Positions 26,632 to 44,460 of a stretch of DNA of 64,000 nucleotides are shown in pieces (the first letter of the stretch is position 1; every line of letters starts with the position of its first letter). The position numbers and the translations under genes are program-made. The stretch spans positions 62,001 through 126,000 of the forward strand of contig NZ_JARVSC010000009.1 of the NCBI RefSeq assembly GCF_030209375.1, read 5' to 3'. The stretch comes from Plantibacter sp. ME-Dv--P-122b (GTDB lineage Bacteria; Actinomycetota; Actinomycetes; Actinomycetales; Microbacteriaceae). The notes beneath the pieces are model-generated. The model searched no databases, was not told the DNA's origin, and saw nothing but the letters and a program-made list of their open reading frames with translations.

Positions 26632-26677
26632 TGCAGTGGATCCTCCTCGATCACCGACTCGGTAGAGCCCGGACAGA

Positions 26678-26711: not shown

Positions 26712-26755
26712 CGACGTCCGACTCACTGTAGTCGGATATCAGTTGGTCAGGCTAC

Positions 26756-28387
26756 TCAGCCCTTGGTGATGGGTGCGTAGCGGAACTTGAACGACGCGTC
26801 GAGGACGGTGCCGGAGATGTCCTTGCCGACGACCGCGACCTGGGCGCCCTGGAGCAGCGGGATGGTCGACAGGTCGGCCGCCTCCGCGTCCTGGATCTGC
26901 TCGATGAGCTTGGTGCGTGCGTCCGCGTCCGTCGTGGAGCGCTGCTGGTTGATCAGGTCGTTGACGGCCGGGTTGTCGTAGTGGTTCGCGAGGAAGTTGT
27001 CCGTGGCGAAGAACGGCGTCAGGTAGTTGTCCGCGTCGGAGTAGTCCGGGAACCAACCCAGCTGGTAGGCAGGGTAGACGTCCGTGGTGCGGTCCTTCGA
27101 GTACTGCACCCACTCGGTCTGCTGCAGGTTGACGGTGAACAGGCCGTCGGCCTCCAGCTGGTCCTTGATGAGCGCGTACTCGTCGCCGGAGCCGGAACCG
27201 TAGTGGTCACCGTTGTACTGGAGGTTGAGCGCGACCGGAACGGTCACACCGGCTGCCTCGAGCGTCTCCTTGGCCTTCGCGGCATCCGGGCCGCCGTCGC
27301 CGTCGCCGTAGAGGCCCTTGAGGGACTCGGTGGCGCCGGTCAAGCCGGCGGGCACGTAGGAGTAGAGCGGGGTGTACGTGTCCTTGTAGACGTCCTTCGC
27401 GATCGCTGCGCGGTCGATCAGGTCGGCAGCGGCCTGGCGGACGGCGAGCGCCTTCGCCGGGTCGGCGTCAGCGGTGGTGGCACCGTAGGGCATCGTGTCG
27501 AAGTTGAAGACGAAGTAGCGGATCTCGCCACCGGGGCCGTCGACGACCTTGACGTTCTTGTCCTTCTTCAGGTCTTCGATGTCGGTCGCCGAGAGGCTGC
27601 GCGACGCGACGTCGATGTTGCCCTGCTTGACGTCGAGCTTCAGGTTGGATTCGTCGGTGTAGTACTTCACGTTGACGGTGTCGTTCTTCGCCTCGCCGAG
27701 GAGGCCCTGGTAGTCGGCGTACTTCTTGTACGAGATGAGCTCGTTGAACTTGTAGCTGTCGATCGTGTACTGGCCGGCGAAGGCCTTGCCCTTGACGATG
27801 TCGTTGTCGGGCGTGACCTCGGTGGCGGAGAAGACGTCCTCGTCGACGATCGGGCCGACGGGGCTCGAGAGCACCTGCGGGAAGGTCTGGTCGTTCTCGG
27901 TCTTCAGCGTGAAGACGACGGTGAGGTCGTCGGGCGCGTCGGTCTTCTCGAGGTTGCTGAGGAGCGACGACGGGCCGTTGTCATCGGCGATGGCCAGCTG
28001 GCGATCGAAGCTGAACTTCACGTCCGAGGAGGTGAGGTCGTTGCCGTTCGCCCACTTGAGGCCCTTCTTGAGCTTCACCGTGTACTCGGTCGGCGAGGTG
28101 AACTCGGCCGACTCGGCGATGTCGGGCTCGACGTCGGGGCTGTTGTACGGCGTGTTCAGGAGGAACGGGAAGACCTGGTTCATGACGGCGAAGGAGCCGT
28201 TGTCGTAGGATCCGGCCGGGTCGAGCGTCGTGACCTTGTCGGTCGTACCGATGACGATCGTGCCGCTGGCACCGCTGCTGGAACCGCCATCGTTGCCGGC
28301 GGCGCAGCCGGCGAGGGCGAGAGCGGTGATGGACAGACCCGCGAGCGCGACGGCGCTCTTCCGGAATCCACTACGTGGGGATGACAT
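26756..28387 (-). CDS. oligopeptide ABC transporter substrate-binding lipoprotein (SBP_bac_5)
   Basis: 543 residues from ATG 28387. A lipoprotein signal ends in LALAGC (lipid-modified Cys near 28), followed by a Gly/Ser linker and a family 5 extracellular binding domain (LDPAGSYDNGSFAVMNQVF, KKGLKWANGNDLTSSDVKFSFD). It captures peptides or similar solutes outside the membrane. ATG 28402 is an alternative start, but GAGG lies 9 nt before 28387 and nothing purine-rich lies before 28402. First gene of the importer operon. Confidence 0.92.
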   Translation of the reverse strand: MSSPRSGFRKSAVALAGLSITALALAGCAAGNDGGSSSGASGTIVIGTTDKVTTLDPAGSYDNGSFAVMNQVFPFLLNTPYNSPDVEPDIAESAEFTSPTEYTVKLKKGLKWANGNDLTSSDVKFSFDRQLAIADDNGPSSLLSNLEKTDAPDDLTVVFTLKTENDQTFPQVLSSPVGPIVDEDVFSATEVTPDNDIVKGKAFAGQYTIDSYKFNELISYKKYADYQGLLGEAKNDTVNVKYYTDESNLKLDVKQGNIDVASRSLSATDIEDLKKDKNVKVVDGPGGEIRYFVFNFDTMPYGATTADADPAKALAVRQAAADLIDRAAIAKDVYKDTYTPLYSYVPAGLTGATESLKGLYGDGDGGPDAAKAKETLEAAGVTVPVALNLQYNGDHYGSGSGDEYALIKDQLEADGLFTVNLQQTEWVQYSKDRTTDVYPAYQLGWFPDYSDADNYLTPFFATDNFLANHYDNPAVNDLINQQRSTTDADARTKLIEQIQDAEAADLSTIPLLQGAQVAVVGKDISGTVLDASFKFRYAPITKG

Positions 28388-28692
28388 TGATGTCGACCTC
28401 ATTTTCTGTGTGTGAGAGACGGCACGGCTGTGTGCAGGTTCTTCGCACGTGCTTGTAGAGGATTACAGCACGCTCCGAACAAATCCCTCAAACCCAGGGG
28501 CCTTCCGGTGCTGATTCGTTACGAGCACGAAACGTGCGCGTGCGGAAGCCCCGACGCAAGGACCGGGCGTTTCCGCCCGATCCGACGAGCGTCGGCTTCT
28601 GACGCGGATCATGGATCACCGGTTGTCGATAGTATACAGTCTACAGATGACAGGTCCGGATGAGGCGGACCTCACTGTTCTGAGGAGCTCGT
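28388..28692. promoter_or_regulatory. divergent control region between binding protein and aminotransferase
   Basis: About 305 bases with no gene. For the minus-strand importer, a candidate promoter is TTGAGG (28490-28485), 18-bp spacer, TGTAAT (28466-28461). For the plus-strand aminotransferase the main landmark is the 22-bp dyad at 28624-28645 described separately. A ribosome-binding GAGGAGC lies just before the aminotransferase start. Confidence 0.5.
28623..28645 (+). promoter_or_regulatory. putative GntR-type operator, site 1
   Basis: TTGTCGATAGTATACAGTCT begins a 22-bp dyad (28624-28645) centred on GTATAC with form TGTnGAnnGTATACnnTCnACA, 8 of 11 pairs complementary. Seventeen of the first 20 bases recur upstream of the second importer operon (43677-43658), in the same orientation relative to the downstream gene, and all three differences are transitions. 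The GntR regulator at 43714 is the likely binder; this is inference. Confidence 0.6.
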
Positions 28693-29982
28693 ATGTCTGT
28701 GCACCCGCCTGCGGCCACCACCGCCCAGCTCGGCGACGACACGCCAACCGCTCCCGGCCTGCGTCCGGCGCAGAGCGCGCGCGTGGCTCGAACGCATCTC
28801 ACCTATCGCGAGGCCGCTCCCGGGCTCTCCGTCCGCGAAGCCGACCTCTCCCTCCGCCTTGACGGCGGAGGCCACGGCCTGCTGGACACGACCCACTTCG
28901 ACACCGTGCGCTTCCCACCGCCGGCCTGGGCGGACGAGGCCATCCGCGAGGCGGTCGCCACCGGTGCGTGGGCGTACACGCCGTACCGCGGCGACCCGGG
29001 CGTCCTGGCCGAGCTCGCCACGGCGATCGGCGGCTTCCTCGGCAGCCACGTCGGTGCCGACAACCTCGCCCTGACGCCCGGCACGCAGGGGGCGCTGTTC
29101 ACGACGCTGTCGTCGATCATCGACGAGGGCGACCTCGTCCTCCTCGCCGACCCCGACTACCTGTTCTGCGAGCGGATCCTCGCCTTCCTCGGAGCGCGGG
29201 TCGAGCGCATCCCACTCGTCTTGGACGGCGAGCACCCGAGCCTCGACCTCGACGCGGTGGAGCAGTTCCTCCCCGAGCAGCCGAAGCTGCTCATGTTCTC
29301 CCACCCGAACAACCCCACCGGCGCCGTCTACCCCGCGACGATGATCTCCCGGGTCGCCGAACTCGCCGTCGCCGGCGGTTTCCGCGTCCTGGTCGACGAG
29401 CTGTACAGCCGACTCCTCTACACGGACACCCCGTTCCCGCACCTGCGCTCCGAGCCCGGCATGGCCGACCGCACCATCACCCTCCTCGGTCCGTCGAAGA
29501 CCGAGTCCATGAGCGGTTTCCGCATCGGCGTCGTCGTCGCGCCGGAGGACGTGATCGCGTCGGTCGAGCAGACCCTCGCCATGACCTCGCTCCGCGCGCC
29601 CGCCTACGCGCAGCGCATGCTCGCCCGGTGGCTCGTCGACGACGACGACTTCCTCCGTGAGCGCATCGCCGACCTCGAGGCGATCAAGCGGACCACGGTC
29701 GAGACCCTCTCCCGCGTACCGGGGTTGCGGATGAGCCCCCAGGACGGCACGGCCTACCTGTTCCTCGACGTCTCCGCGTTCGGGGTGTCCGACGTCGAGG
29801 TCGCCGGCGCCCTGCAGCGCGAGGCGCAGGTCGTCGTCTCACCCGGCTACCAGTTCGGTCCGTCCGGCACCGGGCACTTCCGGATCTGCTACGCCCGCGA
29901 CGAGACCCAGTGGGCCGCCGCGCTCGACCGCATGGTCGTGTGCCTGACCGGACTCGCGACCGCAGCCGGCATCCACGCGTGA
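28693..29982 (+). CDS. PLP-dependent class I/II aminotransferase
   Basis: 429 residues, fold type I. Visible landmarks are the Tyr of YTPYRGDPGV, HPNNPTG (substrate/PLP binding), DELYSRLLY (PLP-pyridine Asp), the Schiff-base lysine in GPSKTESMSGFRIG and the carboxylate Arg in HFRICYA. It transfers amino groups between an amino acid and a 2-oxo acid; substrate unknown. ATG 28693 follows GAGGAGC. The next gene encodes RidA, which removes reactive enamines made by PLP enzymes, and overlaps it by four bases. The shared operator ties it to the TldDE/DUF4438 unit. Confidence 0.92.
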   Translation: MSVHPPAATTAQLGDDTPTAPGLRPAQSARVARTHLTYREAAPGLSVREADLSLRLDGGGHGLLDTTHFDTVRFPPPAWADEAIREAVATGAWAYTPYRGDPGVLAELATAIGGFLGSHVGADNLALTPGTQGALFTTLSSIIDEGDLVLLADPDYLFCERILAFLGARVERIPLVLDGEHPSLDLDAVEQFLPEQPKLLMFSHPNNPTGAVYPATMISRVAELAVAGGFRVLVDELYSRLLYTDTPFPHLRSEPGMADRTITLLGPSKTESMSGFRIGVVVAPEDVIASVEQTLAMTSLRAPAYAQRMLARWLVDDDDFLRERIADLEAIKRTTVETLSRVPGLRMSPQDGTAYLFLDVSAFGVSDVEVAGALQREAQVVVSPGYQFGPSGTGHFRICYARDETQWAAALDRMVVCLTGLATAAGIHA

Positions 29983-30431
29983 CGGACGAGGCAGCCCGCG
30001 ACGCGGGACTCCGTCCGGCCGGCGCCTACTCGGTCGCGAGGCTCGTCGGCGAGCTGGTCCACACCGCCGGCATGACCCCACGGGTCGACGGCGCGCTCGT
30101 GGCGACCGGCCGGATCGGTCGCGAACTCGACGACGCCCAGGCGCTGGCCGCCACCCGGATCGCGACCGAGCGCGCCCTCGCCGCGGCGGCGAGCGCCGTT
30201 CCCGAGGGTGCCATCCTCACCGAGGTGATCTCCCTGACCGTCTACCTCGCGGTGGCCGACGGTTTCGTCCGGCTGAGTGAGATCGCCGACGCGGCGAGCG
30301 CCGTGGTCGTCGAACGGTTCCCCGACGCCTCACTGCCCGTCCGCGCCGCCCTCGGGGTCGCCGCGCTTCCCGGCGATGCACCCGTCGAGATCCAGCTCGT
30401 CGCGCGGTGCACCGGCGGGCCGATCACCTGA
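29979..30431 (+). CDS. ridA: RidA family enamine/imine deaminase
   Basis: 150 residues with the RidA core: ATGRIGREL, LTEVISLTVYLAV, and the catalytic segment SLPVRAALGVAALP followed by VEIQLVAR, which keep the key Arg and Glu of the active family. RidA hydrolyses enamines such as 2-aminoacrylate formed by PLP enzymes. GTG 29979 overlaps the aminotransferase stop (GTGA), so the two are translated together. That fits an aminotransferase or dehydratase reaction releasing unstable imines. Confidence 0.88.
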   Translation: MTDEAARDAGLRPAGAYSVARLVGELVHTAGMTPRVDGALVATGRIGRELDDAQALAATRIATERALAAAASAVPEGAILTEVISLTVYLAVADGFVRLSEIADAASAVVVERFPDASLPVRAALGVAALPGDAPVEIQLVARCTGGPIT

Positions 30432-30471
30432 GCAGCGCCCAGCGGTCGACGCGTGTGGTCTGATGGTGGTC

Positions 30472-30777
30472 ATGGCCGTCTCATTCAGCTTCACCGTCGG
30501 GGTCGACGAGCCCCATCACGTCACCGTGCGGGTCGCCGGGATCCGGAACCGGGTGACGATCGAGGTCGACGGGTGGCTGGCGGCCGACAGCGGGGGCAAT
30601 CTGGGGCGCATCATGCCGAACGTCTTCGACGTCGAGGTCGGGGTGCAGGAACGACACATGGTGTCGGTTCGGGTGATCATCCAGGAACCGATCGACGGTG
30701 GCGCACGCTACATCGACGTGTTCATCGACGGCCGCTTCGCCGCGCGGCACGACTGGCGGGCGATCCGCGAGTCGTGA
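30472..30777 (+). CDS. hypothetical beta-rich protein with internal repeat (101 aa)
   Basis: No family is firmly recognised. It looks like two similar beta-hairpin units: FTVGVDEPHHVTVRVAG with RVTIEVDGWLAA, and VEVGVQERHMVSVRVII with YIDVFIDGRFAA. The pattern (strand, His, strand, hydrophobic-x-V/I-DG) recalls the FAIM beta-sandwich fold, a weak suggestion. ATG 30472 or 30463 could start it. It follows ridA by 40 nt and may belong to that unit. Confidence 0.6.
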   Translation: MAVSFSFTVGVDEPHHVTVRVAGIRNRVTIEVDGWLAADSGGNLGRIMPNVFDVEVGVQERHMVSVRVIIQEPIDGGARYIDVFIDGRFAARHDWRAIRES

Positions 30778-30791
30778 TCGTGGCCGAGCGG

Positions 30792-31811
30792 TCAGTAGCC
30801 CCGGTCGGCGTCGAAGCGGTTGAGCAGCGGCTCCCCCGCGCGGTACCGGGCGAGGTTCTCGATGAAGAGCGCGGTGAGCGTCGCGTTCTCGCTCTCCACC
30901 GTGGACGCGGAGTGCGGTGAGATGAGCACGTTGTCGAGGTCCCAGAGGGGCGAGTCGGCGGGCAGGGGCTCCTCGCGGAACACGTCGAGGGCGGCACCGC
31001 CGAGTCGACCCGAGCGGAGGGCCTCGATGAGGGCGTCCTCGTCGATCACCTGACCGCGCGAGATGTTGACGACGGCTGCCCCCTCGGGGAGGAGTGCGAT
31101 CCGGTCCGCACTGATGAGGTTCTCGGTCTCGGGGGTGAGCGCCGTGCAGAGCACCAGCACGTCCGTGGTCGGCAGCACCTCGTCGAGCCGGTCGACATCG
31201 CTCAGCTCGACGCCCTCCGGCAGCTCGTAGCTCCCGCCCACGCGACCCACCGCGGTCACGCGGGCACCGATCGCGTCGAAGGTCCGGACCACGTTCGAGC
31301 CCATCCCGCCGACGCCGACGACCGTGACGCGCATGCCGGCGAGCTGCCTCGTGGTGTACCGCTCGAACCGGTGCTCGCGCTGCTGACGCTGCAGGTACGG
31401 CAGGCCCTTCACGACGAAGAGCGCGCCGGTCAGGGCGAACTCGGCGAGCGGCACGGCGTGCACGCCACCGGCCGTCGTCGCGACGATGCCGCTCCGGTCG
31501 AGACCCGTGCGACGCATGAACGCGCCGATGCCCGCACTCGTGGCCTGGATCCATTTCAGGTTCGGTGCCCGCTGCGGCAGGGCAGCCGGATCCTGCCAGT
31601 CGAAGTCGAACGCCACCTCGGCCCGCGCGAGCATGTCCTCCCACTGCTGCTGCTCAGCGGCGGAGAGCCGGGGCGTCGGACCGTGGTGGTCGGCCACGTA
31701 CTGCGGGACGCCGATGAGCGACGGGTCGTAGAGCACCTCGACGTCCGGGTGCGAGGCGCGGATCGCCTCGACGTGCTCGGGTTCGAGGTGGCTGGCGATG
31801 AGAATCTGCAT
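30792..31811 (-). CDS. D-isomer-specific 2-hydroxyacid dehydrogenase
   Basis: 339 residues. The NAD-binding domain has GVGGMGSNV near 160; catalytic residues appear as Arg in NISRGQVID, Glu in FREEPLP and His in ISPHSAS. It reduces a 2-oxo acid to a D-2-hydroxy acid or the reverse. ATG 31811 follows GGATGGACC. It is 72 nt downstream of the second DUF4438 gene on the same strand and is the last gene of the TldDE/DUF4438 unit. It could act on the 2-oxo acid made by the aminotransferase; that link is inferred. Confidence 0.9.
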   Translation of the reverse strand: MQILIASHLEPEHVEAIRASHPDVEVLYDPSLIGVPQYVADHHGPTPRLSAAEQQQWEDMLARAEVAFDFDWQDPAALPQRAPNLKWIQATSAGIGAFMRRTGLDRSGIVATTAGGVHAVPLAEFALTGALFVVKGLPYLQRQQREHRFERYTTRQLAGMRVTVVGVGGMGSNVVRTFDAIGARVTAVGRVGGSYELPEGVELSDVDRLDEVLPTTDVLVLCTALTPETENLISADRIALLPEGAAVVNISRGQVIDEDALIEALRSGRLGGAALDVFREEPLPADSPLWDLDNVLISPHSASTVESENATLTALFIENLARYRAGEPLLNRFDADRGY

Positions 31812-31883
31812 GATGGTCCATCCTGCCGCGGGCGCGGCGATGCGTCGGTCGTGGCGCGGTGCGTCGCGCGTTCCTTCGGTCGG

Positions 31884-32768
31884 TCAGTCGGTCGGCCAGG
31901 GCGCGACCGCCGCGAGCCGCTCCGCCGTGAGCGCAGGCCGGACACCGCCTGCCTCCTCGCTGACGGTCCGGGGCTGGAGGACCGACCGTGGACCGCAGGC
32001 GATCGGGACGAATCCGGGACCGTGACCGGGCATGGGCGAGCCGCCGTGGACGATGATCCCCACGGTGATCCAGTCCCGCCGGTACCCCATGTTGTGGCGG
32101 ACGTCGAGGTGCTCGACCGCGAACAGGTCCCCGAGCCGCATGTCGATCCCGGCGAGTTCGGGCGATTCCGGCACCACGGCGAGGTCGACGTCCCACTGGT
32201 GCGCGGGTCGGCCGATACCGTTGCCGGCCACCTTGCCCGGCAGCACCCCGACCACGTCGAAGCCCGCGACACCGTCCTCGACGCGCAGCGGAAGCGCGTC
32301 GAGGAGGGCGGGGTCGATGTTCAGCAGGACGATCTCCTCGGGCAGGTCCTCGCGGCGCAGGCCCTGACCCATGGCGTGCACCGCGATCCGGTCCCCGGGC
32401 AGCAGGGCGGCCATCGTCTCGTCGTCGAAGGAGACGATGACCCGGCCCGCCTCACCGCGCTTGCCGACGACGGACCCCGTCGCCCCGGTCGCCGCACCGG
32501 ACCGGACGGTCGCGCGGTTCCCGATGCAGGCGAAGGACGTCAGTCCGAAGCGCGACCCGGCGTCCGGGTGCACGAGCGTGACCCCGGGTGCGACGTGGTC
32601 GGTGTCTGAGGCGAAGACCGAGTCTCCCAGGTGCACGCCGAGGACGACCCCGCCGTCGCCGATCGGCACGTAGGGGTGTCCGTCGCGGTCGATCCGGTAG
32701 GACACCATGGGGGTGAGGCCGGCGTGCTCGACGAAGCCGAGCAGGTTGTTGGCGATGATCGAGCTCAT
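31884..32768 (-). CDS. DUF4438 domain protein, copy B
   Basis: 294 residues, family of unknown function. Shared landmarks with its neighbour: GDGGVVLGVHLGDSVFAS, ACIGNRATVRSGAATGATGSV, GQGLRREDLPEEIVLLNIDP, and RRDWITVGIIVHGGSPMPGHGPG. No catalytic motif is evident; the many small-residue turns suggest a beta-rich fold and a regular assembly. It starts inside the stop of copy A (ATGA). The pair lies downstream of the TldD/TldE pair, so a role in the same peptide pathway is likely. Confidence 0.85.
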   Translation of the reverse strand: MSSIIANNLLGFVEHAGLTPMVSYRIDRDGHPYVPIGDGGVVLGVHLGDSVFASDTDHVAPGVTLVHPDAGSRFGLTSFACIGNRATVRSGAATGATGSVVGKRGEAGRVIVSFDDETMAALLPGDRIAVHAMGQGLRREDLPEEIVLLNIDPALLDALPLRVEDGVAGFDVVGVLPGKVAGNGIGRPAHQWDVDLAVVPESPELAGIDMRLGDLFAVEHLDVRHNMGYRRDWITVGIIVHGGSPMPGHGPGFVPIACGPRSVLQPRTVSEEAGGVRPALTAERLAAVAPWPTD

Positions 32769-33679
32769 GCGGCCGTCTCCGTCGTGGTCGTAGTCGTGGT
32801 CGTGGTCGTCGCTCGGCCCATGCCGGCGAGCGCGGTGCCGAGGTTGGCGGCGCGGTCGTCGACGACCGTGAACGCCGACACCGGTCCCGACAGCAGGGTC
32901 GACGGGCCGGGACCGTGCCCGAAGAGGCGGCACTCGCCGGTGGAGATGACCCCGATCGTGATCCAGCCGGGCCGGTAGCCGCGTCCGTAGGAGTGGTCCT
33001 GGTCCTCGAGGACGACGATGTCGCCGATGCGGAGGGACTCGAGGCCGAGCGACAGGTCCTCGCTGAGGCCCGGGTAGGCGCCCATGAGGTCGGTGTTGGC
33101 GAACTCGGAGAGCATGCCGCCACCGGCGCCGGCCGCCTCGGCCGGGACGCGCATGGCCACGCCGACCTCGAGCGTGCCGTCGGCCGCCGTCGAGAACGGC
33201 AGGTGCGGCAGGAGCCGCGGGTCCAGGTTCTTCACCCGGACGTCCGGGTGGTCGAGGAGGCGCAGGCCCTGACCGCGGGCCTCGACGCTCACGGCGTCGC
33301 CGGTCGTCACCTGGCGGAGCGCCCCGTCGGCGAAGTCGGCGAGGACGTAGGCGTGCTGGCCGATGACGACACCCTCGGCTCCTGCCGCCGCCCCCGAGCG
33401 CACCGTCACGATGTTGCCCACGCAGCTGAGGAACTGCAGTGCGGCGTTCGCCTCGGCGCCCGCGTGCCGGATCGACAGGCCGGGTTCGAGGTGGTCGCTT
33501 GCATGCCCCGTTGCGGCCTCACCGACGTGCGCACCCATCGTCACCCCGCCCATGCCGGGCAGGATGAAGGGGTGGCCGTCGGGGTCGACCCGGTAGCCGT
33601 GACGGTCGGCCTGGGGCGGCCAGACCTCTCCGGTGAGGATCTGCGTGACCAGGCGGTCCTCGTTGGTCCTGAGGCTCAT
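32765..33679 (-). CDS. DUF4438 domain protein, copy A
   Basis: 304 residues, paralogous to copy B: GMGGVTMGAHVGEAATG, SCVGNIVTVRSGAAAGAEGVVIG, GQGLRLLDHPDVRVKNLDPRLL, RPGWITIGVISTGECRLFGHGPG. The C-terminus is a run of ten threonines ending in TETAA, encoded by GTGGTC-type repeats that could slip. ATG 33679 overlaps the TldE-like stop by four bases. Two adjacent, coupled paralogues suggest a heteromeric complex. Function unknown. Confidence 0.85.
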   Translation of the reverse strand: MSLRTNEDRLVTQILTGEVWPPQADRHGYRVDPDGHPFILPGMGGVTMGAHVGEAATGHASDHLEPGLSIRHAGAEANAALQFLSCVGNIVTVRSGAAAGAEGVVIGQHAYVLADFADGALRQVTTGDAVSVEARGQGLRLLDHPDVRVKNLDPRLLPHLPFSTAADGTLEVGVAMRVPAEAAGAGGGMLSEFANTDLMGAYPGLSEDLSLGLESLRIGDIVVLEDQDHSYGRGYRPGWITIGVISTGECRLFGHGPGPSTLLSGPVSAFTVVDDRAANLGTALAGMGRATTTTTTTTTTETAA

Positions 33680-36638: not shown

Positions 36639-37795
36639 GCGCGGGCCGCCTCGGCGTCGTTCGCATCCGACGGGGCGAGCGCGAGCGGGAAGTCGCACCA
36701 GGCGCGCGTGCGGAACGACAGCTCGAACGCGTTGATCGTCTCCTGGACGAGCGCGCCCTGGTCGAAGTTGCCCTGGTTGAAGTCCTCGCCGGACAGGATC
36801 TCGGTGGCGAAGTCCTTGCAGAGGTTCGAGTAGAAGAGGAACGGCCAGGGCTCGGTGGACGCCCCACCCTCGGGGAAGAACTCCTGCGGGATCTCGAGCT
36901 CCTCGAACTCGACCTGGTCCTTCTTCGCGACCTTGATCGTCTGGCAGATGCCGGCCTCCTCGACCAGGCGGACGATGATCGCACCCTCCGAGCCGTAGAT
37001 GCGGGCCTCGATGCCGGGGAAGTTGCCGACGGTGACGTAGGACGACTGGATGGACGCCAGGCGACCCTGCTCGAACTCGGCGATCCACATGTCGCCGTCG
37101 TCGATGTTCATGCGCTGCATGGCACCGGTGTCGCGGACCATCCGCTCAGGGACGAAGTTGCGCATCGTGCCGACGACGCTCGTCATGGGCGCGTCGAGCC
37201 ACCAGTGCATGATGTCGATGATCGGAGCACCGTACCCCTCGATGGAGGAGACGGCGATCACCTCGGGGTCGGCGTCAGGGTCCACCTGGCGCAGCGGGGT
37301 CTTCGGGTCGATCCACTGGCTGTTCTGCTCGTAGCCGTTGAAGATGTAGGGCTCGCCGATGAAGCCCTGGTCGATGAGGTGCTTCGCGTACTGGATCGCG
37401 GGGGCGAAGCGGAAGGTGAAACCGAGCTTCGTCTTGACGCCACGCTCGGCGGCGAGCGCCGCGGCACGACGGGTCTCGGTGTAGTCGCTGTTGACGGGCT
37501 TCTCACACAGCACGTGCTTGCCCGCCGCGATGGCCGCCATGGAGATCTCGAAGTGCATGGCGTTGCCGGTCGCGACGTCGATGACGTCGATGTCGGGGTC
37601 GTCGATCAGTTCCCGGTAGTCGGTCACCGCACGCTCGATCCCGAACTCCGCGGCCGCCGAGGCGAGCGCCTCCTCGTCGATCTCGGCCAACGCGACGACC
37701 TCGACGCGCGGGTCGCGCTGCCAGCCGGGGATGTGGGAGCGGACGGCCCAGCGGCCGGCACCGACGACGGCGACTCGGAGCTTGCGATCGGACAT
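36635..37795 (-). CDS. Gfo/Idh/MocA family oxidoreductase
   Basis: 386 residues. An N-terminal Rossmann domain has VAVVGAGRWAVRSH, the catalytic lysine motif CEKPV lies near 97, and a C-terminal alpha/beta domain follows (YGAPIIDIMHWWLDAP). These enzymes are NAD(P)-dependent dehydrogenases for sugars, inositols or amino-acid-like compounds. Its place between the importer permeases and TldD suggests that the imported compound contains a non-standard or glycosylated part. Substrate unknown. Confidence 0.9.
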   Translation of the reverse strand: MSDRKLRVAVVGAGRWAVRSHIPGWQRDPRVEVVALAEIDEEALASAAAEFGIERAVTDYRELIDDPDIDVIDVATGNAMHFEISMAAIAAGKHVLCEKPVNSDYTETRRAAALAAERGVKTKLGFTFRFAPAIQYAKHLIDQGFIGEPYIFNGYEQNSQWIDPKTPLRQVDPDADPEVIAVSSIEGYGAPIIDIMHWWLDAPMTSVVGTMRNFVPERMVRDTGAMQRMNIDDGDMWIAEFEQGRLASIQSSYVTVGNFPGIEARIYGSEGAIIVRLVEEAGICQTIKVAKKDQVEFEELEIPQEFFPEGGASTEPWPFLFYSNLCKDFATEILSGEDFNQGNFDQGALVQETINAFELSFRTRAWCDFPLALAPSDANDAEAARA

Positions 37796-37867
37796 GGTGG
37801 TTCTCCTTCTGCGGGTGCCGGCATCGTGCGATGCGCGGACGGTGGTGGGATCGGTCGGAGGTTCAGG

Positions 37868-38803
37868 TCACGCGCGCTGGAGGCGGACGCGTGGGTCGAT
37901 GACGGAGTAGAGGAGGTCGACGATGAAGTTGACGACCACGATGAACAGGGCCGAGAACAGCACCGTGCCGACGATCATCGGGGTGTCGAGGTTGGAGATC
38001 GCGTCGAAGGCGAGCCGGCCGATGCCGTTCAGTCCGAACACGGTCTCGACGATCACGACGCCGCCGAGGAAGTAGCCGAAGTCGAGCCCGATCATCGTGA
38101 CGAGCGGGATGGCGACGTGCCGGAAGCAGTGGCGCCACAGGATGGTGCGCTCCGGCATGCCCTTCGCCCGGGCCATGCGGACGAACGGCGAGTCGAGCGT
38201 CTCGATCATGTTGGTGCGCGTCATGCGGGCGTACCAGGCGCCGCCGCCCGAGCCGAGCGTGAAGGTCGGCAGCACGAGGTACCAGATGATCGGATCGCCG
38301 AGCCCGTTGAGCGGGAACAGGCCCCAGCTGAACGCGAAGTAGTAGATGAGGAGCAGGCCGAGCCAGAACGACGGTGCCGAGAGGCCGATGAGGGAGACGA
38401 AGGTCACCGTGCGGTCGACCCAGCCACCGCGACGGTAGGCCGCGTAGATGCCGGCCGGGACCCCGAGGACGATCTGCCAGATGAGCCCGCCGATGGCCAC
38501 GAGGACCGTCGTGGGCAGCGCGGAGACGATCCGCTCGAACACGCTCGTCTCGCGCAGGACGTAGGAGGTGCCGAGGTCACCGCTTAGGAGCCGCCCGATG
38601 AAGCCGAGGTACTGCTCCCACAGCGGCGCGTCGAGGCCGAGCTGCGCACGGATGGACGCGATCGTCTCGGCGCTCGCGTTCGGACCAGCGAGCGTGGCCG
38701 CAGGGTCCGCAGGCACGGCGTAGACGAGGAGGAACGCGAGGCTGACCACCCCGAAGAGGACGAGGGCCATCTGCCCGAGTCGTCGTGCAAGCCACCAGAA
38801 CAC
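37868..38803 (-). CDS. oligopeptide ABC transporter permease (DppB-like), second importer
   Basis: 311 residues, six membrane segments. The start MFWWLARRLGQMALVLFGV and end VIDPRVRLQRA are typical, and the EAA loop is FVRMARAKGMPERTILWRHCFR. The start is GTG 38803, 3 nt after the DppC-like stop. It forms the channel of the second importer with the DppC-like protein. A 72-nt gap then leads to the MocA gene. Confidence 0.92.
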   Translation of the reverse strand: MFWWLARRLGQMALVLFGVVSLAFLLVYAVPADPAATLAGPNASAETIASIRAQLGLDAPLWEQYLGFIGRLLSGDLGTSYVLRETSVFERIVSALPTTVLVAIGGLIWQIVLGVPAGIYAAYRRGGWVDRTVTFVSLIGLSAPSFWLGLLLIYYFAFSWGLFPLNGLGDPIIWYLVLPTFTLGSGGGAWYARMTRTNMIETLDSPFVRMARAKGMPERTILWRHCFRHVAIPLVTMIGLDFGYFLGGVVIVETVFGLNGIGRLAFDAISNLDTPMIVGTVLFSALFIVVVNFIVDLLYSVIDPRVRLQRA

Positions 38804-38806
38804 GGT

Positions 38807-39739
38807 CTACCTCGCCATCGGTGCTGCTGAGTCGAGCATCTCGGACAACCAGTCGCCGACCAGGTTGAACGCCATTACCGTGACGATGAGGCAGATGCCG
38901 GGGATGAAGAGCATCCAGGGGGCGATCTGGAAGTAGGTGCTGCCGTCGGAGATCATCTGGCCCCAGGACGCCTGCGGGATCGGGACGCCGATGCCGAGGA
39001 AGGACAGGGCGCTCTCGATGAGGATCGAGGACGCGACACCGAGGGTCGCGTAGACGATGATCGCCGGCAGCAGGTGAGGGATGATGTGCTTCCACATGAT
39101 CCGCAGGTGCCCGACCCCGAGCGTCCGGGTCGCGATGACGAACTCCCGGTGCTTCAGTGAGATGACCATCCCGCGGATGATCCGCGCGAGCGTCGTCCAG
39201 TAGATGAGGGCGATGACGATGATGACGTTCGTCGTGCTCCGGGTCGTGACCGCGATGAGGGCGGTGCACAGCAGCAGGATCGGGAACGAGATCACGACGT
39301 CGGTGATCCGCATGAGCACGGCCTCGACGATGCCGCCGAAGTACCCGGCGATGACGCCGACCGTCACCCCCACGATGGTCGCGAGCCCGTTGGCGACGAT
39401 GCCGATCACGAGCGACACCTGCGTCCCGGAGATGAGGCGGGAGAGCACGTCGCGACCGAGCGCGTCGGTGCCGAGCAGGAAGCCCGGCGTGCCGGGCGGG
39501 AGCGGCTGGCCCTGTGGTCCGAGCCCGATGTCGTTGTAGGTCTGCAGGGGGTCGTGCGGGGTGATGAGTGGTGCCAGCACCGCGATCAGCGCGATGAGGA
39601 GGAGCACGACGAGCGAGACGAGGGCCGCGGGGTCGCGACGGAGACTGCGCAGCACCTCGCGGGCGCGCATGGGTCGGTCGTCGTCGGTCGCCGCCAGGTC
39701 GACACCCTGGCCGATGACGGGTGGGAGGGCTTCGCTCAT
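38807..39739 (-). CDS. oligopeptide ABC transporter permease (DppC-like), second importer
   Basis: 310 residues with about six membrane segments and the usual GTDALGRDVLSRLISG motif. The EAA loop is EFVIATRTLGVGHLRIMWKHI. ATG 39739 overlaps the ATPase stop by four bases. Here the gene order is ATPases before permeases, the reverse of the first importer. Confidence 0.92.
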   Translation of the reverse strand: MSEALPPVIGQGVDLAATDDDRPMRAREVLRSLRRDPAALVSLVVLLLIALIAVLAPLITPHDPLQTYNDIGLGPQGQPLPPGTPGFLLGTDALGRDVLSRLISGTQVSLVIGIVANGLATIVGVTVGVIAGYFGGIVEAVLMRITDVVISFPILLLCTALIAVTTRSTTNVIIVIALIYWTTLARIIRGMVISLKHREFVIATRTLGVGHLRIMWKHIIPHLLPAIIVYATLGVASSILIESALSFLGIGVPIPQASWGQMISDGSTYFQIAPWMLFIPGICLIVTVMAFNLVGDWLSEMLDSAAPMAR

Positions 39740-40803
39740 GCGTCGGCTCCGATCCGGGAGGGCTCCGGCACCAGCACCGGGTCCGCGAAGTGGCAGGCGG
39801 CGGCCTGACCGGAGGCCGTCGTCCGCAGGGGCGGCGCCACCGTGCCGCAGACCTCCTGGGCCATGGGGCACCGCGGGTGGAAGCTGCACCCGCTCGGCGG
39901 GTTCGCGGCGCTCGGCGGTTCACCCGTCAGGCGGACCCGTGGGAGGCGGGTCGAGCGGTCGCGGACGATCGGCTCCGGCACCGCCGAGAGCAGCGCCCTC
40001 GTGTACGGGTGCTGCGGGTTGTCGAAGATCTCGTCCCGCGTCCCGATCTCGACGAGGCGTCCGAGGTACATGATGCCGACGTGGTCGGCCATGAAGCGGA
40101 GTGTGGACAGGTCGTGCGAGATGAAGAGGTAGGCGAGGCCGAGGTCCTCCTGCAGGTCCTTGAGCAGGTTGAGCACCTGCGCCCGCACCGAGACGTCGAG
40201 GGCTGAGACGGCCTCGTCGCAGAGGATGAGGCGGGGGTCGACGCAGAGCGCGCGGGCGATCGACACGCGTTGGCGCTGGCCGCCAGACAGCTCGCGCGGT
40301 CGCCGTTCGATGAAGCTGCGCGACAGGCCGACCTGGTCGAGGATGCCCTCGACCGCCCGCCGGGGATCGGTCGGCTTGGTGGTGCGGAGCGAGATCGCCT
40401 CCAGGAGCGTCTCCCCCACCTTCATGCGCGGGTCGAGCGAATCGTACGGGTCCTGGAAGATCATCTGCATCGTGCGCCGGTACTCGGCGAGCCGACGACC
40501 GCGCAGCGCCCCGACGTCCTCACCGTTCAAGCGCATGCTGCCGCCGGACGCCTGGTTGATGCCCATGAGCGTCCTGGCGATGGTGCTCTTGCCGGAGCCC
40601 GACTCGCCGGCGATGCCGAGGGTCTCACCGGCCCGCAGCTCGAAACTGACGCCCTGGACGGCGGGCACCCGGGAGGCGCGTCGGCCGATGCCGCCTGAGC
40701 GCCGGAAGGTGACCTCGAGGTCCTGCACCTGCAACAGGGCCTCCCCGGCCCGCGACCGGCTGCTCGGACCGTTGACGAGGTCCGATCCGTCGAGCCGGCT
40801 CAT
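39736..40803 (-). CDS. oligopeptide ABC transporter ATP-binding protein (DppF-like), second importer
   Basis: 355 residues: Walker A GESGSGKST near 70, signature LSGGQRQR, Walker B ILCDEAVSALD and the H-loop ISHDLS. It ends with the oligo_HPY domain (GCSFHPRCPMAQEVC), whose cysteines often bind an iron-sulfur cluster. ATG 40803 overlaps the DppD-like stop by four bases. Pairs with the next ATPase gene upstream in the operon. Confidence 0.93.
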   Translation of the reverse strand: MSRLDGSDLVNGPSSRSRAGEALLQVQDLEVTFRRSGGIGRRASRVPAVQGVSFELRAGETLGIAGESGSGKSTIARTLMGINQASGGSMRLNGEDVGALRGRRLAEYRRTMQMIFQDPYDSLDPRMKVGETLLEAISLRTTKPTDPRRAVEGILDQVGLSRSFIERRPRELSGGQRQRVSIARALCVDPRLILCDEAVSALDVSVRAQVLNLLKDLQEDLGLAYLFISHDLSTLRFMADHVGIMYLGRLVEIGTRDEIFDNPQHPYTRALLSAVPEPIVRDRSTRLPRVRLTGEPPSAANPPSGCSFHPRCPMAQEVCGTVAPPLRTTASGQAAACHFADPVLVPEPSRIGADA

Positions 40804-41813
40804 GCGGCCGACTCCTGCTCGACGGCGAACGCCTCGGGGGCGACGACGCCGCACGCGACCCGTTGACCGGTCCCGCCGAGCGGCGCCTGGACGAGCGCCG
40901 GGTCGTTGGTCAGACACGTGTCGACGGCGGCCGGACAGCGCGGGGCGAACGCACAGCCGGTCGGCCGACGGCCGGCGGTGGGCGGCGCCCCGGAGATGGT
41001 GCGCAGCCGTGGCGGGATCGGCTCGGAGAGCTTGAGGATCGAGCCGAGGAGCGCGTGGGTGTACGGGTGCTGCGGGTCGCCGACGATCTGCTCGGCGGTG
41101 CCCTGCTCGACGATGCGGCCGGCGTACATCACGAGGATGCGGTCACAGAAACTGGAGATGACGCCGAGGTCGTGGCTGATCAGGATCACGCCCGTGTCCT
41201 GCTCCGAGACCATGTCGTCGAGCAGGTCGAGCACCTGGGCCTGCACGGTCACGTCGAGTGCCGTGGTCGGCTCGTCCGCGATCAGGAGCTTCGGCGAACA
41301 GGCGGTGGCGATGGCGATGCAGACGCGCTGCCGCATCCCGCCGGAGAAGGCGCCCGGGAAGTCGTTCATGCGAGCCTCGGCGTCAGGGATGCCGACCCGT
41401 CGCAGCAGGTCGACGGCGCGTGCCCGGGCGGCGACACGCCCCATGCCGAGGTGCGTCTCGAGCGACTCGGTGATCTGCCGACCGACCCGCATGAGCGGGT
41501 TGAGGCTCGACATCGGGTCCTGGAAGACCATGGCCACCTGCGAGCCGCGCCACTGCTGCAACGCGCGGTCGGAGTACGCGAGGACGTCCTCGCCCCCGAA
41601 CCGCACTGAGCCACCGGCGATGACCCCGGGGTCCGACACGAGCCGCATGACGGCCTGGGAGGTGAGGGACTTGCCGGAACCCGACTCCCCGACGATGCCG
41701 ACGCGCTCACCGGCCGAGACCTGGAACGAGACGCCGTCGACGGCGTGGAAGGGGTCCCCCGAGGAGGTCGGGAAGTCGACCACGAGGTTGGAGACGTCGA
41801 GCAGCGCACTCAT
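40800..41813 (-). CDS. oligopeptide ABC transporter ATP-binding protein (DppD-like), second importer
   Basis: 337 residues: Walker A GESGSGKSL near 42, signature FSGGMRQR, Walker B IADEPTTALD, oligo_HPY end (GCAFAPRCPAAVDTC). ATG 41813 follows GAAAGGACGCGAC. The 18 bases of start and leader (41811-41828) are identical to those before the DppD-like gene of the third importer (54167-54184). Confidence 0.93.
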   Translation of the reverse strand: MSALLDVSNLVVDFPTSSGDPFHAVDGVSFQVSAGERVGIVGESGSGKSLTSQAVMRLVSDPGVIAGGSVRFGGEDVLAYSDRALQQWRGSQVAMVFQDPMSSLNPLMRVGRQITESLETHLGMGRVAARARAVDLLRRVGIPDAEARMNDFPGAFSGGMRQRVCIAIATACSPKLLIADEPTTALDVTVQAQVLDLLDDMVSEQDTGVILISHDLGVISSFCDRILVMYAGRIVEQGTAEQIVGDPQHPYTHALLGSILKLSEPIPPRLRTISGAPPTAGRRPTGCAFAPRCPAAVDTCLTNDPALVQAPLGGTGQRVACGVVAPEAFAVEQESAA

Positions 41814-41836
41814 GTCGCGTCCTTTCGGTGGGGGCG

Positions 41837-41869
41837 CCGCGGGTGGTCCGTCGAGGGGACCACCCGCGG
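41837..41869 (-). terminator. intercistronic hairpin between binding-protein and ATPase genes
   Basis: A perfect 13-bp inverted repeat (CCGCGGGTGGTCC at 41837-41849, complement at 41857-41869) with a 7-nt loop, in the 131-bp gap after the second binding-protein gene. No T-tract. It probably stabilises the binding-protein message or lowers expression of the distal genes, like the hairpin at 26678-26711 in the first importer. Confidence 0.6.
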
Positions 41870-41944
41870 GTCGGGTGCCGGAGTTCCGTGGTGCGGTGAT
41901 GCGGGTGGCGCGTCGGTGCGCCGGGTGGGGTGGACCGGCTGCGG

Positions 41945-43570
41945 TTACCGCTTGGCGGTGCCGTCCGACTTCCAGTACTCGGCCATGTCCCAGCCCCAGA
42001 TCGGCTGCGGGAAGTACCCCTCGATGCCGGTGCTGTGGAGCTCGGTCTTGGTGCCGAAGTACAGCGGCACGATCGGGTTGTCCGCGAGCATGAGCTTCGA
42101 CGCCTCCTCGTACTTCGCGGTGGCCGCGTCCGGGTCGGTCTCGGCGAGCGCCTGGGCGACCAGCTCGTCCATCTCCGGGTTGCAGTAGTACGCGTAGTTG
42201 TGGCCCTGTGGGACCGCCGACGCGCACGACATGAGTGCCTGCAGGAAGTCCGAACCCTCCGGGTAGTCGGCCACCCAGAACGTCAGGGCGAGCGGTGCCT
42301 TGCCGGCTCCAGCCAACTCACTGAAGGTGTTCGGGGCGAGCGTCTGCAGGTTCACGTCGATCCCGATGGCCTTGAGGTCCTGCTGCATCTGCGGCGCAAG
42401 GGCCGAGAAGGGCGGGACGTTCCAGGCGTACATGTCGGTCGAGATGCCGTCGGCGAAGCCCGCCTCCGCGAGCAGCTCCTTGGCCTTCTCGACGTCCTGC
42501 TCGTGGGTCATCTCGTCGCCCGTGTAGCCGAGGACCTTCGGCGGGATGAACTCGGTGGCCGCCGAGCCCTGACCGTTGACGAGCTTGAGCAGCGCCTTCC
42601 GGTCGAAGGCGAGGGAGACGGCCTCACGGACCTTCGGGTTGTCGAAGGGAGCCGTGTTGACGTTCATCGTGAGGTAGTAGGTGCTCGGCTTCTCGATCTC
42701 GACGAGCTGGTCCTTGAGCTTCGGGTCCGAGGTGACCTGGATGAACTTCGCGGGCGGGATCGGGCTGCCCATCAGGTCGATGTCACCCTTCTGCAGCATG
42801 AGGACCTGGTTGTCGGGGTCGACGCCGAGGATCATGCGGATGTGGTCGGCGTACGGACGCGGGGAGTCCCAGTAGTCGGGGTTGCGATCGAGCGTGATCT
42901 CCTTGCCCGCGCTGAAGGTGTTCAGCGTGAACGGCCCGGAGCCGATGGGCTCGGTCGCGACGGTGCCGCCGCTGCCCTCGGGGATGATCGAGCCGGCGGG
43001 CATGGCGAGGATGTACTTGAACGAGGAGTTGGGCGTCGTCAGCGAGATCTTCAGGGTCTGATCGTCGACGACCTCGATGCCGCTCGGGAGTCCGGTCGGG
43101 TTCGCGGCGTACTCCTCGGCGCCGGCGATGCCGCGCCAGAACTCGGCGAGGCCCGCCTTCGTGGCGGGGTCGAGGACGCGTGCGTAGGAGTAGGCGACGT
43201 CCTTGGCTGTGAGCGGGTCGCCGTTGCTGAAGGTGAGTCCCTCCTTGAGCTTCATCGTGTAGGTGAGGCCGTCGTCGCTCACCTCCGGGAAGGACTCGGC
43301 CGCCTGGAGCTTCAGCTCACTGGTGTCGCGGTCGTAGTCGTACATGCGGTCGAACATCATCCGCATCATGTTCCAACACGTCGCGCCCGTGCAGACGGCC
43401 GGGTCGAAGGTCTCGGGGTCGGATGCGGCGGCGGTCGTGATCGTGCCGCCGTACTTGGGGTCGCCGCCTGCGGCGGAGGTGCTGCCGCCGCCCGCACCGC
43501 CGGCGCTACACGCCGTCAGGGCGACCGCGAGCGCTGCACCGAGCAGCGCGCCTCGCAGTGTCTTCTTCAC
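41945..43570 (-). CDS. oligopeptide ABC transporter substrate-binding lipoprotein, second importer
   Basis: 541 residues. The lipoprotein signal ends in ALTAC (Cys near 21), followed by a Gly/Ser linker and the SBP_bac_5 domain (PETFDPAVCTGATCWNMMRMMFD, KEGLTFSNGDPLTAKDVAYSY). Two cysteines near 57-62 lie in the mature protein. First gene of the unit that runs on through the importer, MocA, TldD/TldE, DUF4438 and dehydrogenase genes. The GntR gene diverges from it 143 bases away. Confidence 0.93.
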   Translation of the reverse strand: MKKTLRGALLGAALAVALTACSAGGAGGGSTSAAGGDPKYGGTITTAAASDPETFDPAVCTGATCWNMMRMMFDRMYDYDRDTSELKLQAAESFPEVSDDGLTYTMKLKEGLTFSNGDPLTAKDVAYSYARVLDPATKAGLAEFWRGIAGAEEYAANPTGLPSGIEVVDDQTLKISLTTPNSSFKYILAMPAGSIIPEGSGGTVATEPIGSGPFTLNTFSAGKEITLDRNPDYWDSPRPYADHIRMILGVDPDNQVLMLQKGDIDLMGSPIPPAKFIQVTSDPKLKDQLVEIEKPSTYYLTMNVNTAPFDNPKVREAVSLAFDRKALLKLVNGQGSAATEFIPPKVLGYTGDEMTHEQDVEKAKELLAEAGFADGISTDMYAWNVPPFSALAPQMQQDLKAIGIDVNLQTLAPNTFSELAGAGKAPLALTFWVADYPEGSDFLQALMSCASAVPQGHNYAYYCNPEMDELVAQALAETDPDAATAKYEEASKLMLADNPIVPLYFGTKTELHSTGIEGYFPQPIWGWDMAEYWKSDGTAKR

Positions 43571-43647
43571 TGAGTACTCCTGTCAGGGTTGTGCCGGACC
43601 TCCTGAGGAAGCGAGCCGCCGACGGAACGTTCATGTGCTGTTGGTGG

Positions 43648-43677
43648 ACGATATCACAGACTGCACACTGTCGACAA
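43648..43677 (-). promoter_or_regulatory. promoter with overlapping putative GntR operator, site 2
   Basis: On the minus strand, TTGTCG (43677-43672), an 18-bp spacer and TATCGT (43653-43648) form a plausible sigma-70-type promoter for the second importer operon. The segment TTGTCGACAGTGTGCAGTCT (43677-43658) matches site 1 at 17 of 20 bases. A bound repressor here would block the promoter. It also lies next to the gntR promoter, allowing autoregulation. Confidence 0.6.
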
Positions 43678-43707
43678 TCGACAAGAAGGAATGTGTTGAG
43701 CTAGGAT
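43678..43707 (+). promoter_or_regulatory. gntR promoter, probably giving a leaderless transcript
   Basis: TCGACA (43678-43683), an 18-bp spacer, and TAGGAT (43702-43707). The ATG at 43714 lies 6 nt after the -10 element, about where transcription would start, so the message is probably leaderless; there is no ribosome-binding site in that gap. The -35 element adjoins operator site 2. Confidence 0.5.
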
Positions 43708-43713
43708 TCGGGC

Positions 43714-44412
43714 ATGGAAACTCTCGAACGAACCGGGTTGACAGGGGCCGCGGTCAACGAGCTGCGGGAGGCGATCCTGGAGGGTCGCCTCGTCCAAGGG
43801 GAACGCCTGAGCGAGGTGAACCTCTCGACGACGCTCGGAGTCAGTCGCGCGCCGGTCCGGGAAGCACTGCTCCACCTCGAGCAGGAGGGCCTCGTCGTGT
43901 CACTGCCCTACAAGGGCGCGTCGGTGGTCACGCTGTCGCCTCAGGACTTCCTCGAGCTGTCCACGCTGCGGACCGCGCTCGAACGACTCGCCTGGTCGCG
44001 CGCGATCGAGCGTGCCGGTGACGACGAGGTGGCCGCCATGCGCGCCATCATCGAGGAGATGCGGGTCGCGGTCGAGACGGATCAGAAGGCCAAGCTCGTC
44101 CGACTCGACATCGACTTCCACGACCAGGTCTTCCTCCTCGCGGACCATTCGCGGCTCTACACCGCCTGGCAGGCGATCAAGTGGCAGGTCGCGCTCTTCC
44201 TCCTCACGCGACGCGTGAAAGTGGACGATTACCACAGCATCATCGTGCAGGAGCACACCGAGCTCCTCGACCTGCTCCACGAACGGCGGACGGCAGCCAT
44301 CGACGAGACGATCGAGCGGCACATCGGCTCCGGATACGGTCGCGTCAGCGAGCGGCTCGCCGGAGACGCTCGTGCCGCCCACGATTCCGGGCCGGCCGTC
44401 GCCACCTCGTGA
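43714..44412 (+). CDS. GntR family transcriptional regulator (FadR subfamily)
   Basis: 232 residues. N-terminal winged HTH (GAAVNELREAILEGRL, TTLGVSRAPVREALLHLEQEGLV) and C-terminal all-helical FCD domain with the metal-site residues DFHDQVFLLADH and a later EHTELLDLL / RHIGSGYG. FCD regulators usually bind a carboxylate and release DNA. It is divergent from the second importer operon and lies beside a site repeated before the aminotransferase gene, so it is the best candidate regulator of both. Confidence 0.92.
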   Translation: METLERTGLTGAAVNELREAILEGRLVQGERLSEVNLSTTLGVSRAPVREALLHLEQEGLVVSLPYKGASVVTLSPQDFLELSTLRTALERLAWSRAIERAGDDEVAAMRAIIEEMRVAVETDQKAKLVRLDIDFHDQVFLLADHSRLYTAWQAIKWQVALFLLTRRVKVDDYHSIIVQEHTELLDLLHERRTAAIDETIERHIGSGYGRVSERLAGDARAAHDSGPAVATS

Positions 44413-44416
44413 GCCC

Positions 44417-44460
44417 CGACTGACCGCCGAGTGCCCGGGTCGTCGTCGGCGACTCAGTCG
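44417..44460. terminator. imperfect hairpin between convergent genes
   Basis: CGACTGA (44417-44423) pairs with TCAGTCG (44454-44460), with further GCCGA/TCGGC pairing inside. It separates the gntR stop from the stop of the sugar-type binding-protein gene and overlaps the latter. Weak and without a T-tract. Confidence 0.35.

Follow-up and report, generated by a model that had tools for sequence, protein, structure and literature searches.

We report on a gene cluster in a 64,000-nucleotide stretch of the genome of Plantibacter sp. ME-Dv--P-122b (Microbacteriaceae; contig NZ_JARVSC010000009.1, positions 62,001 to 126,000; this whole stretch is called the window below). The cluster encodes an Opp-type importer, a Gfo/Idh/MocA oxidoreductase (MocA), a TldD/TldE protease pair (TldDE), and two adjacent proteins of the uncharacterised family DUF4438 (A and B), together with a D-2-hydroxyacid dehydrogenase, an aminotransferase, a Rid-family protein, and an FCD-type GntR regulator. 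We favor, with moderate confidence, the interpretation that these genes constitute a co-regulated catabolic set for a peptide-like conjugate and that gain or loss affects the set as a whole. More tentatively, and aware that it may well be wrong, we propose that DUF4438 could represent an orphan-fold family of enzymes of a novel class, which in actinobacteria would have split into a two-subunit enzyme acting on the MocA product within an undescribed pathway of Opp import and TldDE trimming for a peptide-like conjugate.

Recurrence of the cluster in actinobacteria

All genes named in an earlier note on this DNA (importer, MocA, TldD/TldE, twin DUF4438, dehydrogenase, aminotransferase, RidA, and regulator) were found in their places by Pfam matches over cut-off. 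On the minus strand, from 43570 down to 31884, the solute-binding protein (SBP), two ATPases, two permeases, MocA, TldD, TldE, A, and B follow one another and lead on to the dehydrogenase. The coordinates bear out the note's claim that four-base overlaps join TldD/TldE to MocA on one side and to the two DUF4438 genes on the other: MocA, TldD, TldE, A, and B are chained by four such overlaps in the window, and the same junctions in relatives are mostly overlaps as well. The genome contains a single DUF4438 pair and a single TldDE pair, both inside this cluster.

Our comparison covers 17 intact loci, namely the window, 12 loci from a scan of named genomes (L020–L031), and four from other relatives (G002, G005, G013, and G032). 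The scan of named genomes used patterns built from actinobacterial sequences and returned at least 13 loci, all of them actinobacterial (the 12 intact ones and a remnant, L032); among the named matches listed, the Microbacteriaceae loci of Subtercola and Agreia were closest to the A protein of the window. Gene presence per locus was judged by tblastn, gene calling, and extra flanking stretches, with the lower-GC stretches L063 and L067 judged by tblastn. Adjacent A and B genes, a MocA gene immediately upstream of TldD or A, and an Opp-type importer were present in all 17 loci, and core gene order was maintained in hosts of several families. The importer is orthologous to that of the window in 14 loci (judged from the permeases in L025, where the contig ends) and of non-orthologous types in L022, L026, and L029, lying some kilobases off in the latter. 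TldDE are encoded between MocA and A/B in 15 loci and absent from L022 and L028. A relative of the FCD-GntR regulator (established by Pfam for the window and L021, by similarity for the others) was found in 16/17 loci and the dehydrogenase likewise in 16/17, the exceptions being L031 and L025, respectively, both at contig ends. The aminotransferase is present in 13 loci (L020, L025, and L031 stop at contig ends; L022 lacks it) and the Rid protein in six, every one of them from Microbacteriaceae.

The DUF4438-DUF4438-TldD-TldE neighborhood that the note had suggested surveying is therefore conserved at most of the actinobacterial loci reached, where DUF4438 genes regularly occur with TldDE and transporters instead of away from them. 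The note's further idea that DUF4438 is coupled primarily to TldDE holds in part: TldDE accompany it at most loci, but MocA does so at all of them. Because MocA, A, and B are kept where TldDE are missing, DUF4438 is tied to MocA first, and MocA and DUF4438, rather than TldDE and DUF4438, form the invariant core. The MocA and A genes of L022 share a 4-base overlap, and no TldDE were found in that draft genome; the genome of L028 encodes one TldDE pair, located away from the cluster. Two DUF4438 matches were obtained in each of the 11 genomes behind L020–L024 and L026–L031. The L022 locus, from a draft Streptosporangiales genome, additionally has MocA in three paralogous copies, another group of importer genes, and more than one operator-like site (L022:1020–10004), possibly a simpler version of the pathway.

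Five loci (L021, L023, L024, L026, and L027) share a second arrangement in which the dehydrogenase, a DHDPS-family protein, an SDR, and an aminotransferase are placed ahead of the importer, divergently so in L026. Family scans were run on one example each (DHDPS-family protein and SDR from L023, aminotransferase from L026), and the aminotransferase was nearest to NCBIfam PRK06108, below its cut-off. These enzymes give a hint that a hydroxy-oxo acid might be dehydrated or split by aldol cleavage.

In the family of the window, DUF4438 exceeded the cut-off in 9 of 398 genomes (its own included; raw counts that ignore relatedness among genomes), and TldDE did so in exactly the same nine, which represent four genera; the cluster thus accounts for TldDE occurring in so few genomes of this family. 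DUF4438 was also over cut-off in 5/99 genomes, again counting the window's own, and in a phylum sample (n = 396) in that genome alone. Matches under the cut-off comprised weak ones to DUF4438 in G008, G673, and G486 and to TldD in G757. Searches with A returned no match in plasmids and phages and, in two scans, no relatives in viral contigs.

Limits of the unit

Four genomes of the same genus without DUF4438 retain a second importer (window positions 22713 to about 28587), the dehydrogenase (about 85% DNA identity), and the gene at 44454, with flanks of about 89–97% identity, and lack about 28587–30789 (aminotransferase, Rid protein, and operator-like sites) as well as about 31827–44454 (B to GntR regulator). 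The best reading of these sequences is that the cluster was gained or lost as a unit, in either direction. The second importer (22713–28402) was considered as a member of the system and rejected because these cluster-free relatives keep it in place. It is of the family-5 type with a single ATPase protein of 573 amino acids and occupies the same place in genomes of the genus with or without the cluster. Position 28387, where the earlier note had let the system begin, is the start of the SBP gene of this second importer, so that the proposed extent to 44412 holds for its content but not for its left edge. The membership of RidA and dehydrogenase survives in part as well: both lie beside the cluster, but Rid proteins recur at only six loci and the dehydrogenase persists without it. 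The dehydrogenase and Rid genes of G002 are separated by two additional reading frames of 224 and 307 amino acids (L013:2535–4130), which clustered with no other locus protein.

The remnant in Paractinoplanes aksuensis (L032:9909–11200) consists of part of B, a relative of the GntR regulator, and an operator site, with one internal stop; neither an importer nor MocA nor TldDE was detected in the stretches compared. The gene upstream of it (L032:7149–9860) matches the gene upstream of the intact operon of P. pyxinae (L060:3479–6193).

A dedicated clade of TldD/TldE

All 15 TldD proteins of the cluster contain HESxGH and a later Cys in PCGKGEPKQ, and all 15 TldE proteins are devoid of HExxxH and CGK, which is the pattern of a TldD/TldE metalloprotease. 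In E. coli TldD, the metal ligands are two His residues and Cys454, none of which is present in TldE (excerpts of PMC5810440). Judged by these motifs, the metal site of TldD in the window is intact.

In an unrooted tree, for which the program warned of long branches, the 15 TldD from the cluster and 13 from elsewhere fell on opposite sides of one branch with support of 100/100. The outside loci stem from cluster carriers or the remnant host (8) and from five of the seven DUF4438-less relatives with TldDE; their TldD are 27–45% identical to that of the window, and neither MocA nor DUF4438 relatives were detected beside them within the about 12–14.5 kb fetched. The pair of the cluster is not general housekeeping TldDE, given its confinement to the nine DUF4438-bearing genomes of 398 and its separate clade. 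Two of the outside loci (L080:8594–12000 and L081:8576–11981), whose hosts we take to be Micromonosporaceae, encode TldDE pairs of the other clade beside divergent Opp-type importer genes but lack both MocA and DUF4438; TldDE may there serve a different purpose that is again linked to import.

Two diverged DUF4438 paralogues

A and B match both Pfam domains of DUF4438 over the curated cut-offs (149.5/107.7 bits for A and 127.7/65.3 bits for B) and are 37% identical to each other over 246 columns. In an alignment of 32 rows, from which the A and B proteins of G005 were excluded as near copies, 16 A and 16 B sequences each occupied one side of a branch with support of 100/100, so that A and B seem to have duplicated before the cluster spread among these hosts. 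The structure model of A (pLDDT 89) has the fold of TM1086 (TM 0.84–0.91; 39–40% identity) from Thermotoga maritima, which was recovered as a DUF4438 carrier in a control search. B is related to TM1086 by sequence (9.4e-42), its single-sequence model reaching a pLDDT of 35.5. Beyond TM1086, the next Foldseek match to the A model in the PDB had an E-value of 0.25 (best 50 of 490 rows), and the idea that DUF4438 is distantly related to some known enzyme was dropped on these grounds. The PDB entries of TM1086 hold 5 and 30 chains, which suggests an oligomer.

Twelve polar residues of A (Y29, D62, H63, C86, N89, D128, Q137, N151, D197, D228, R236, and H255) are kept in at least 15/16 A and at least 15/16 B proteins and are identical in TM1086, as expected of an enzyme. 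Other positions differ sharply between the paralogues, for example T247 and C250 of A versus H241 and S244 of B, where TM1086 has H and C. This pattern would fit two subunits that divide an ancestral site between them.

A recurring predicted operator

The usual targets of FCD-GntR regulators are catabolic genes. In all seven Microbacteriaceae loci aligned, the same 13-base core, ACTGTCGACAATC, lies between the SBP and GntR genes. We built an operator matrix (GATTGTCGACAATC-like) from five sites only, those ahead of the dehydrogenase operons of the second arrangement (L058–L062, belonging to L021, L023, L027, L024, and L026), all in families other than that of the window. In the promoter-bearing stretches of the other 11 testable loci (L025, whose contig begins within the importer genes, was left out), the top-ranked site was a promoter site. 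Over the 64-kb window, the matrix placed the site between SBP and GntR first (20.1), overlapping sites upstream of the aminotransferase second and third, and a site elsewhere fourth. The top site lay on the importer side in G002, G005, G013, G032, L020, L028, L030, and L031; in L029 it preceded MocA and in L022 the dehydrogenase. In stretches with the aminotransferase promoter, the best site was found there in G002, G005, G013, and G032 and the second best in L030. The remnant L032 keeps an operator site scoring 23.3, and the four empty-site loci gave maxima of only 10.0–11.6.

A palindrome therefore recurs in the operon promoters of the cluster, as in a regulon of an FCD-GntR protein, and its position suggests that the FCD regulator would be what binds it. 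Because the matrix ranks their promoters first and second in the window, the importer and aminotransferase operons probably belong to one regulon. These observations agree with the note's picture of an importer under a FadR-type regulator, in that an FCD-GntR protein recurs with the cluster and a common predicted operator precedes importer and aminotransferase. Among the matches listed in genome searches for GATTGTCGACAATC with one mismatch, the cluster site was the sole match in G032 and G499. A wider regulon did not emerge from six more such palindrome-like sites, taken from the matches listed for G497, G500, and G005: five lie inside open reading frames, and the stretches around the sites have no gene family in common. 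Separately, TldD of a DUF4438-less relative is preceded, at a distance of a few hundred bases, by a 19.3-bit operator-like site (L092:8922–8939).

Importer and MocA

The importer has the composition of the Opp/Dpp type, with a family-5 SBP, two permeases, and two oligo_HPY ATPases, and by the names of solved relatives, family-5 SBPs also include agrocinopine-, nickel-, and heme-binding proteins. MocA matches N- and C-terminal Pfam domains over cut-off and falls far short of the characterised levoglucosan dehydrogenase (131.9 versus 650 bits; its best NCBIfam match) and inositol dehydrogenase (120.8 versus 355 bits) equivalogs. Its solved relatives include DgpA and inositol and anhydro-sugar enzymes.

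Features of the window

The features of the cluster are collected in Table 1. Elsewhere in the window, a Stealth-family protein (CR1–CR4; 47540–49180) is encoded next to a PolyA polymerase-type gene (45900–47351); proteins of the Stealth type are linked to capsule and exopolysaccharide phosphotransferases. ARAGORN found no tRNA in the window.

Table 1. Features of the cluster in window coordinates. Starts of both ATPases and of the OppC-like permease were picked by codon score, and their Pfam matches come from longer frames.
Feature	Positions	Strand	Evidence and remarks
Two overlapping weaker operator-like sites	28619..28643	.	Upstream of aminotransferase, within cluster-only stretch; ranks 2 and 3, 13.4/11.8 bits
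Class I/II aminotransferase (Aminotran_1_2)	28693..29982	+	PF00155; nearest NCBIfam PRK06207, score under its cut-off
Rid-family (RidA-like) protein	29979..30431	+	PF01042 (Ribonuc_L-PSP), 45.6 bits vs cut-off 27.3
D-2-hydroxyacid dehydrogenase (2-Hacid_dh_C)	30792..31811	-	PF02826; retained in empty-site relatives too
DUF4438 protein B (DUF4438, DUF4438_C)	31884..32768	-	PF14505, PF20999
DUF4438 protein A (DUF4438, DUF4438_C)	32765..33679	-	PF14505, PF20999
TldE, non-catalytic partner (PmbA_TldD)	33676..35115	-	PF19289
TldD, catalytic subunit (PmbA_TldD)	35112..36638	-	PF19289/PF01523; HESTGH, Cys in PCGKGEPKQ
Gfo/Idh/MocA oxidoreductase	36635..37795	-	PF01408 (GFO_IDH_MocA), PF22725
OppB-like permease	37868..38803	-	PF00528 (BPD_transp_1), PF19300
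OppC-like permease	38807..39739	-	PF00528, PF12911
Second Opp-type ATPase	39736..40803	-	PF00005, PF08352
Opp-type ATPase	40800..41813	-	PF00005, PF08352 (ABC_tran, oligo_HPY)
Family-5 solute-binding protein (SBP_bac_5)	41945..43570	-	PF00496, 6.7e-95; nearest solved chain 8upi, 2.3e-102
Predicted operator CACACTGTCGACAATCGA	43664..43681	.	Between SBP and GntR; rank 1 in window with matrix from L058–L062 only
FCD-type GntR regulator	43714..44412	+	GntR and FCD Pfam domains over cut-off; divergent from importer operon

Proposed pathway and alternatives

We infer both the substrate and the chemistry of DUF4438 from sequence, and the pathway that we favor would run as follows. The Opp-type importer would take in a small peptide-like or amino-acyl conjugate, from which TldDE would cleave off the amide-linked part. 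MocA would oxidise a hydroxyl (or amine) of the remainder in an NAD(P)-dependent manner, and the A/B pair, probably as a hetero-oligomer, would perform the next step on the oxidised product. Aminotransferase and D-2-hydroxyacid dehydrogenase would feed amino, 2-oxo, and 2-hydroxy acid fragments into central metabolism, joined in other families by the DHDPS-family enzyme and the SDR, and the FCD regulator would govern both operons via the palindrome by sensing an acidic intermediate.

Several observations weigh against this pathway. The idea of a single precise substrate is weakened since three loci use non-orthologous importers, and the aminotransferases of different loci have differing nearest subfamilies (PRK06207 in the window, PRK06108 in L026). 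TldDE may not be part of the core, as two loci do without them, and their position beside an importer is no special mark of the cluster because Opp-type genes also lie beside TldD in two of the 13 outside loci (L080 and L081). The dehydrogenase persists in cluster-free relatives. Catalysis by DUF4438 is suggested by residue conservation, for which binding or scaffold roles would be alternative explanations. Regarding regulation, the 13 TldDE loci without DUF4438 score 8.3–19.3 with the matrix (19.3 for L092; 15.8–16.9 for L080, L082, and L088), so that a lone operator score proves little and position and recurrence decide; the sites of the aminotransferase promoter are weak (13.4 and 11.8, with the next window site at 11.6), and two genomes, G497 and G500, each have at least three one-mismatch matches to GATTGTCGACAATC, the cluster site among them.

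MocA-type oxidases partner two-subunit lyases in C-glycoside breakdown, and MocA and DUF4438 might analogously work together to oxidise and then cleave a sugar- or cyclitol-like group, with TldDE only trimming an amino-acyl or N-acyl group off natural substrates that bear one. We take this alternative seriously while regarding it as rather doubtful. The constancy of MocA, A, and B compared to TldDE (17/17 versus 15/17), the direct MocA–A overlap in L022, whose draft genome yielded no TldDE, and the kinship of MocA to DgpA and to inositol and anhydro-sugar enzymes (with levoglucosan dehydrogenase as best NCBIfam match, far below cut-off) speak in its favor, but the importer is of the peptide type and the DUF4438 fold matched no known lyase in the Foldseek rows listed. 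Moreover, the annotated genes (most flanking genes elsewhere being unannotated) include no recognisable sugar kinase or glycosidase, and the adjacent sugar-type SBP (44454–45770) is retained in the empty-site relatives. If the system instead served peptide scavenging, with TldDE as main enzyme, DUF4438 as a partner that aids its delivery, assembly, or regulation, and the rest as ordinary amino-acid catabolism, the overlapping or nearly overlapping TldE–A junctions of most loci and the strict co-occurrence of DUF4438 and TldDE within the family would fit. However, L022 and L028 keep A and B at a locus devoid of TldDE, and 13 TldDE loci elsewhere have no DUF4438, which makes this explanation improbable.

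Still further down the scale, we consider it very unlikely that the genes form a cluster devoted to making a peptide natural product or to self-activation by it: its transporter is an importer with an SBP of its own, its FCD-GntR regulator is of a usually catabolic kind, and no modifying enzyme or exporter was found among the Pfam-scanned genes, small precursor peptides not having been searched for. Such a role of TldDE as maturation protease has precedents in microcin B17 maturation and ammosamide formation, in which TldD/E take part (excerpts of PMC5810440 and PMC12424672). A chance neighborhood with no functional unity is a practically negligible alternative: dehydrogenase and importer do vary or persist alone, but the core order in several host families, the recurring promoter palindrome, and the coincidence in the same 9/398 genomes speak against it as far as the core genes are concerned.

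Comparison with known systems

As far as the open-access literature was searched, no description of DUF4438, TM1086, or such a TldDE-importer cluster was found; the parts belong to known families, while the gene combination and the role of DUF4438 appear undescribed. The cluster places an uncharacterised orphan-fold family in a genomic context with recurring partners and a predicted regulator site, and one genus offers strains both with and without it, so that the function of the family becomes directly testable. At the same time, a TldD/TldE pair is placed in what appears to be nutrient breakdown, as opposed to antibiotic maturation or general turnover.

The closest solved relative of the importer's SBP is 8upi (2.3e-102), which we take to be a Mesorhizobium protein binding L-amino-acid amides and which gives a lead on the substrate; the Pfam-scanned genes of the cluster include no FmdA-type amidase. 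DgpA systems employ an oxidase and then a two-subunit enzyme, with partner subunits from other families than here. The DgpA-type MocA protein of C-glycoside breakdown (PDB 7xr9) belongs to the same oxidoreductase superfamily and is remote in sequence. With E. coli TldD/TldE (PDB 5nj5 and others), the pair of the cluster shares HExxxH and the third-ligand Cys in TldD and the absence of both from TldE, but it forms a dedicated clade within an importer-linked operon, and its TldD is at most 45% identical to 13 other actinobacterial TldD. Amm12/Amm13 (ammosamide) and LmbIH/LmbQ (lincomycin) are likewise TldD-superfamily pairs tied to a single pathway, yet their settings are biosynthetic, and the excerpts describing them make no mention of DUF4438, MocA, or an importer (PMC12424672 and PMC4351081). 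The only solved DUF4438 protein found is TM1086 of T. maritima (PDB 3dcl and 3n99; released 2008), which resembles A in fold, is 39–40% identical to it, and has the same twelve polar residues, whereas the cluster described here encodes two diverged paralogues next to each other and linked to an importer.

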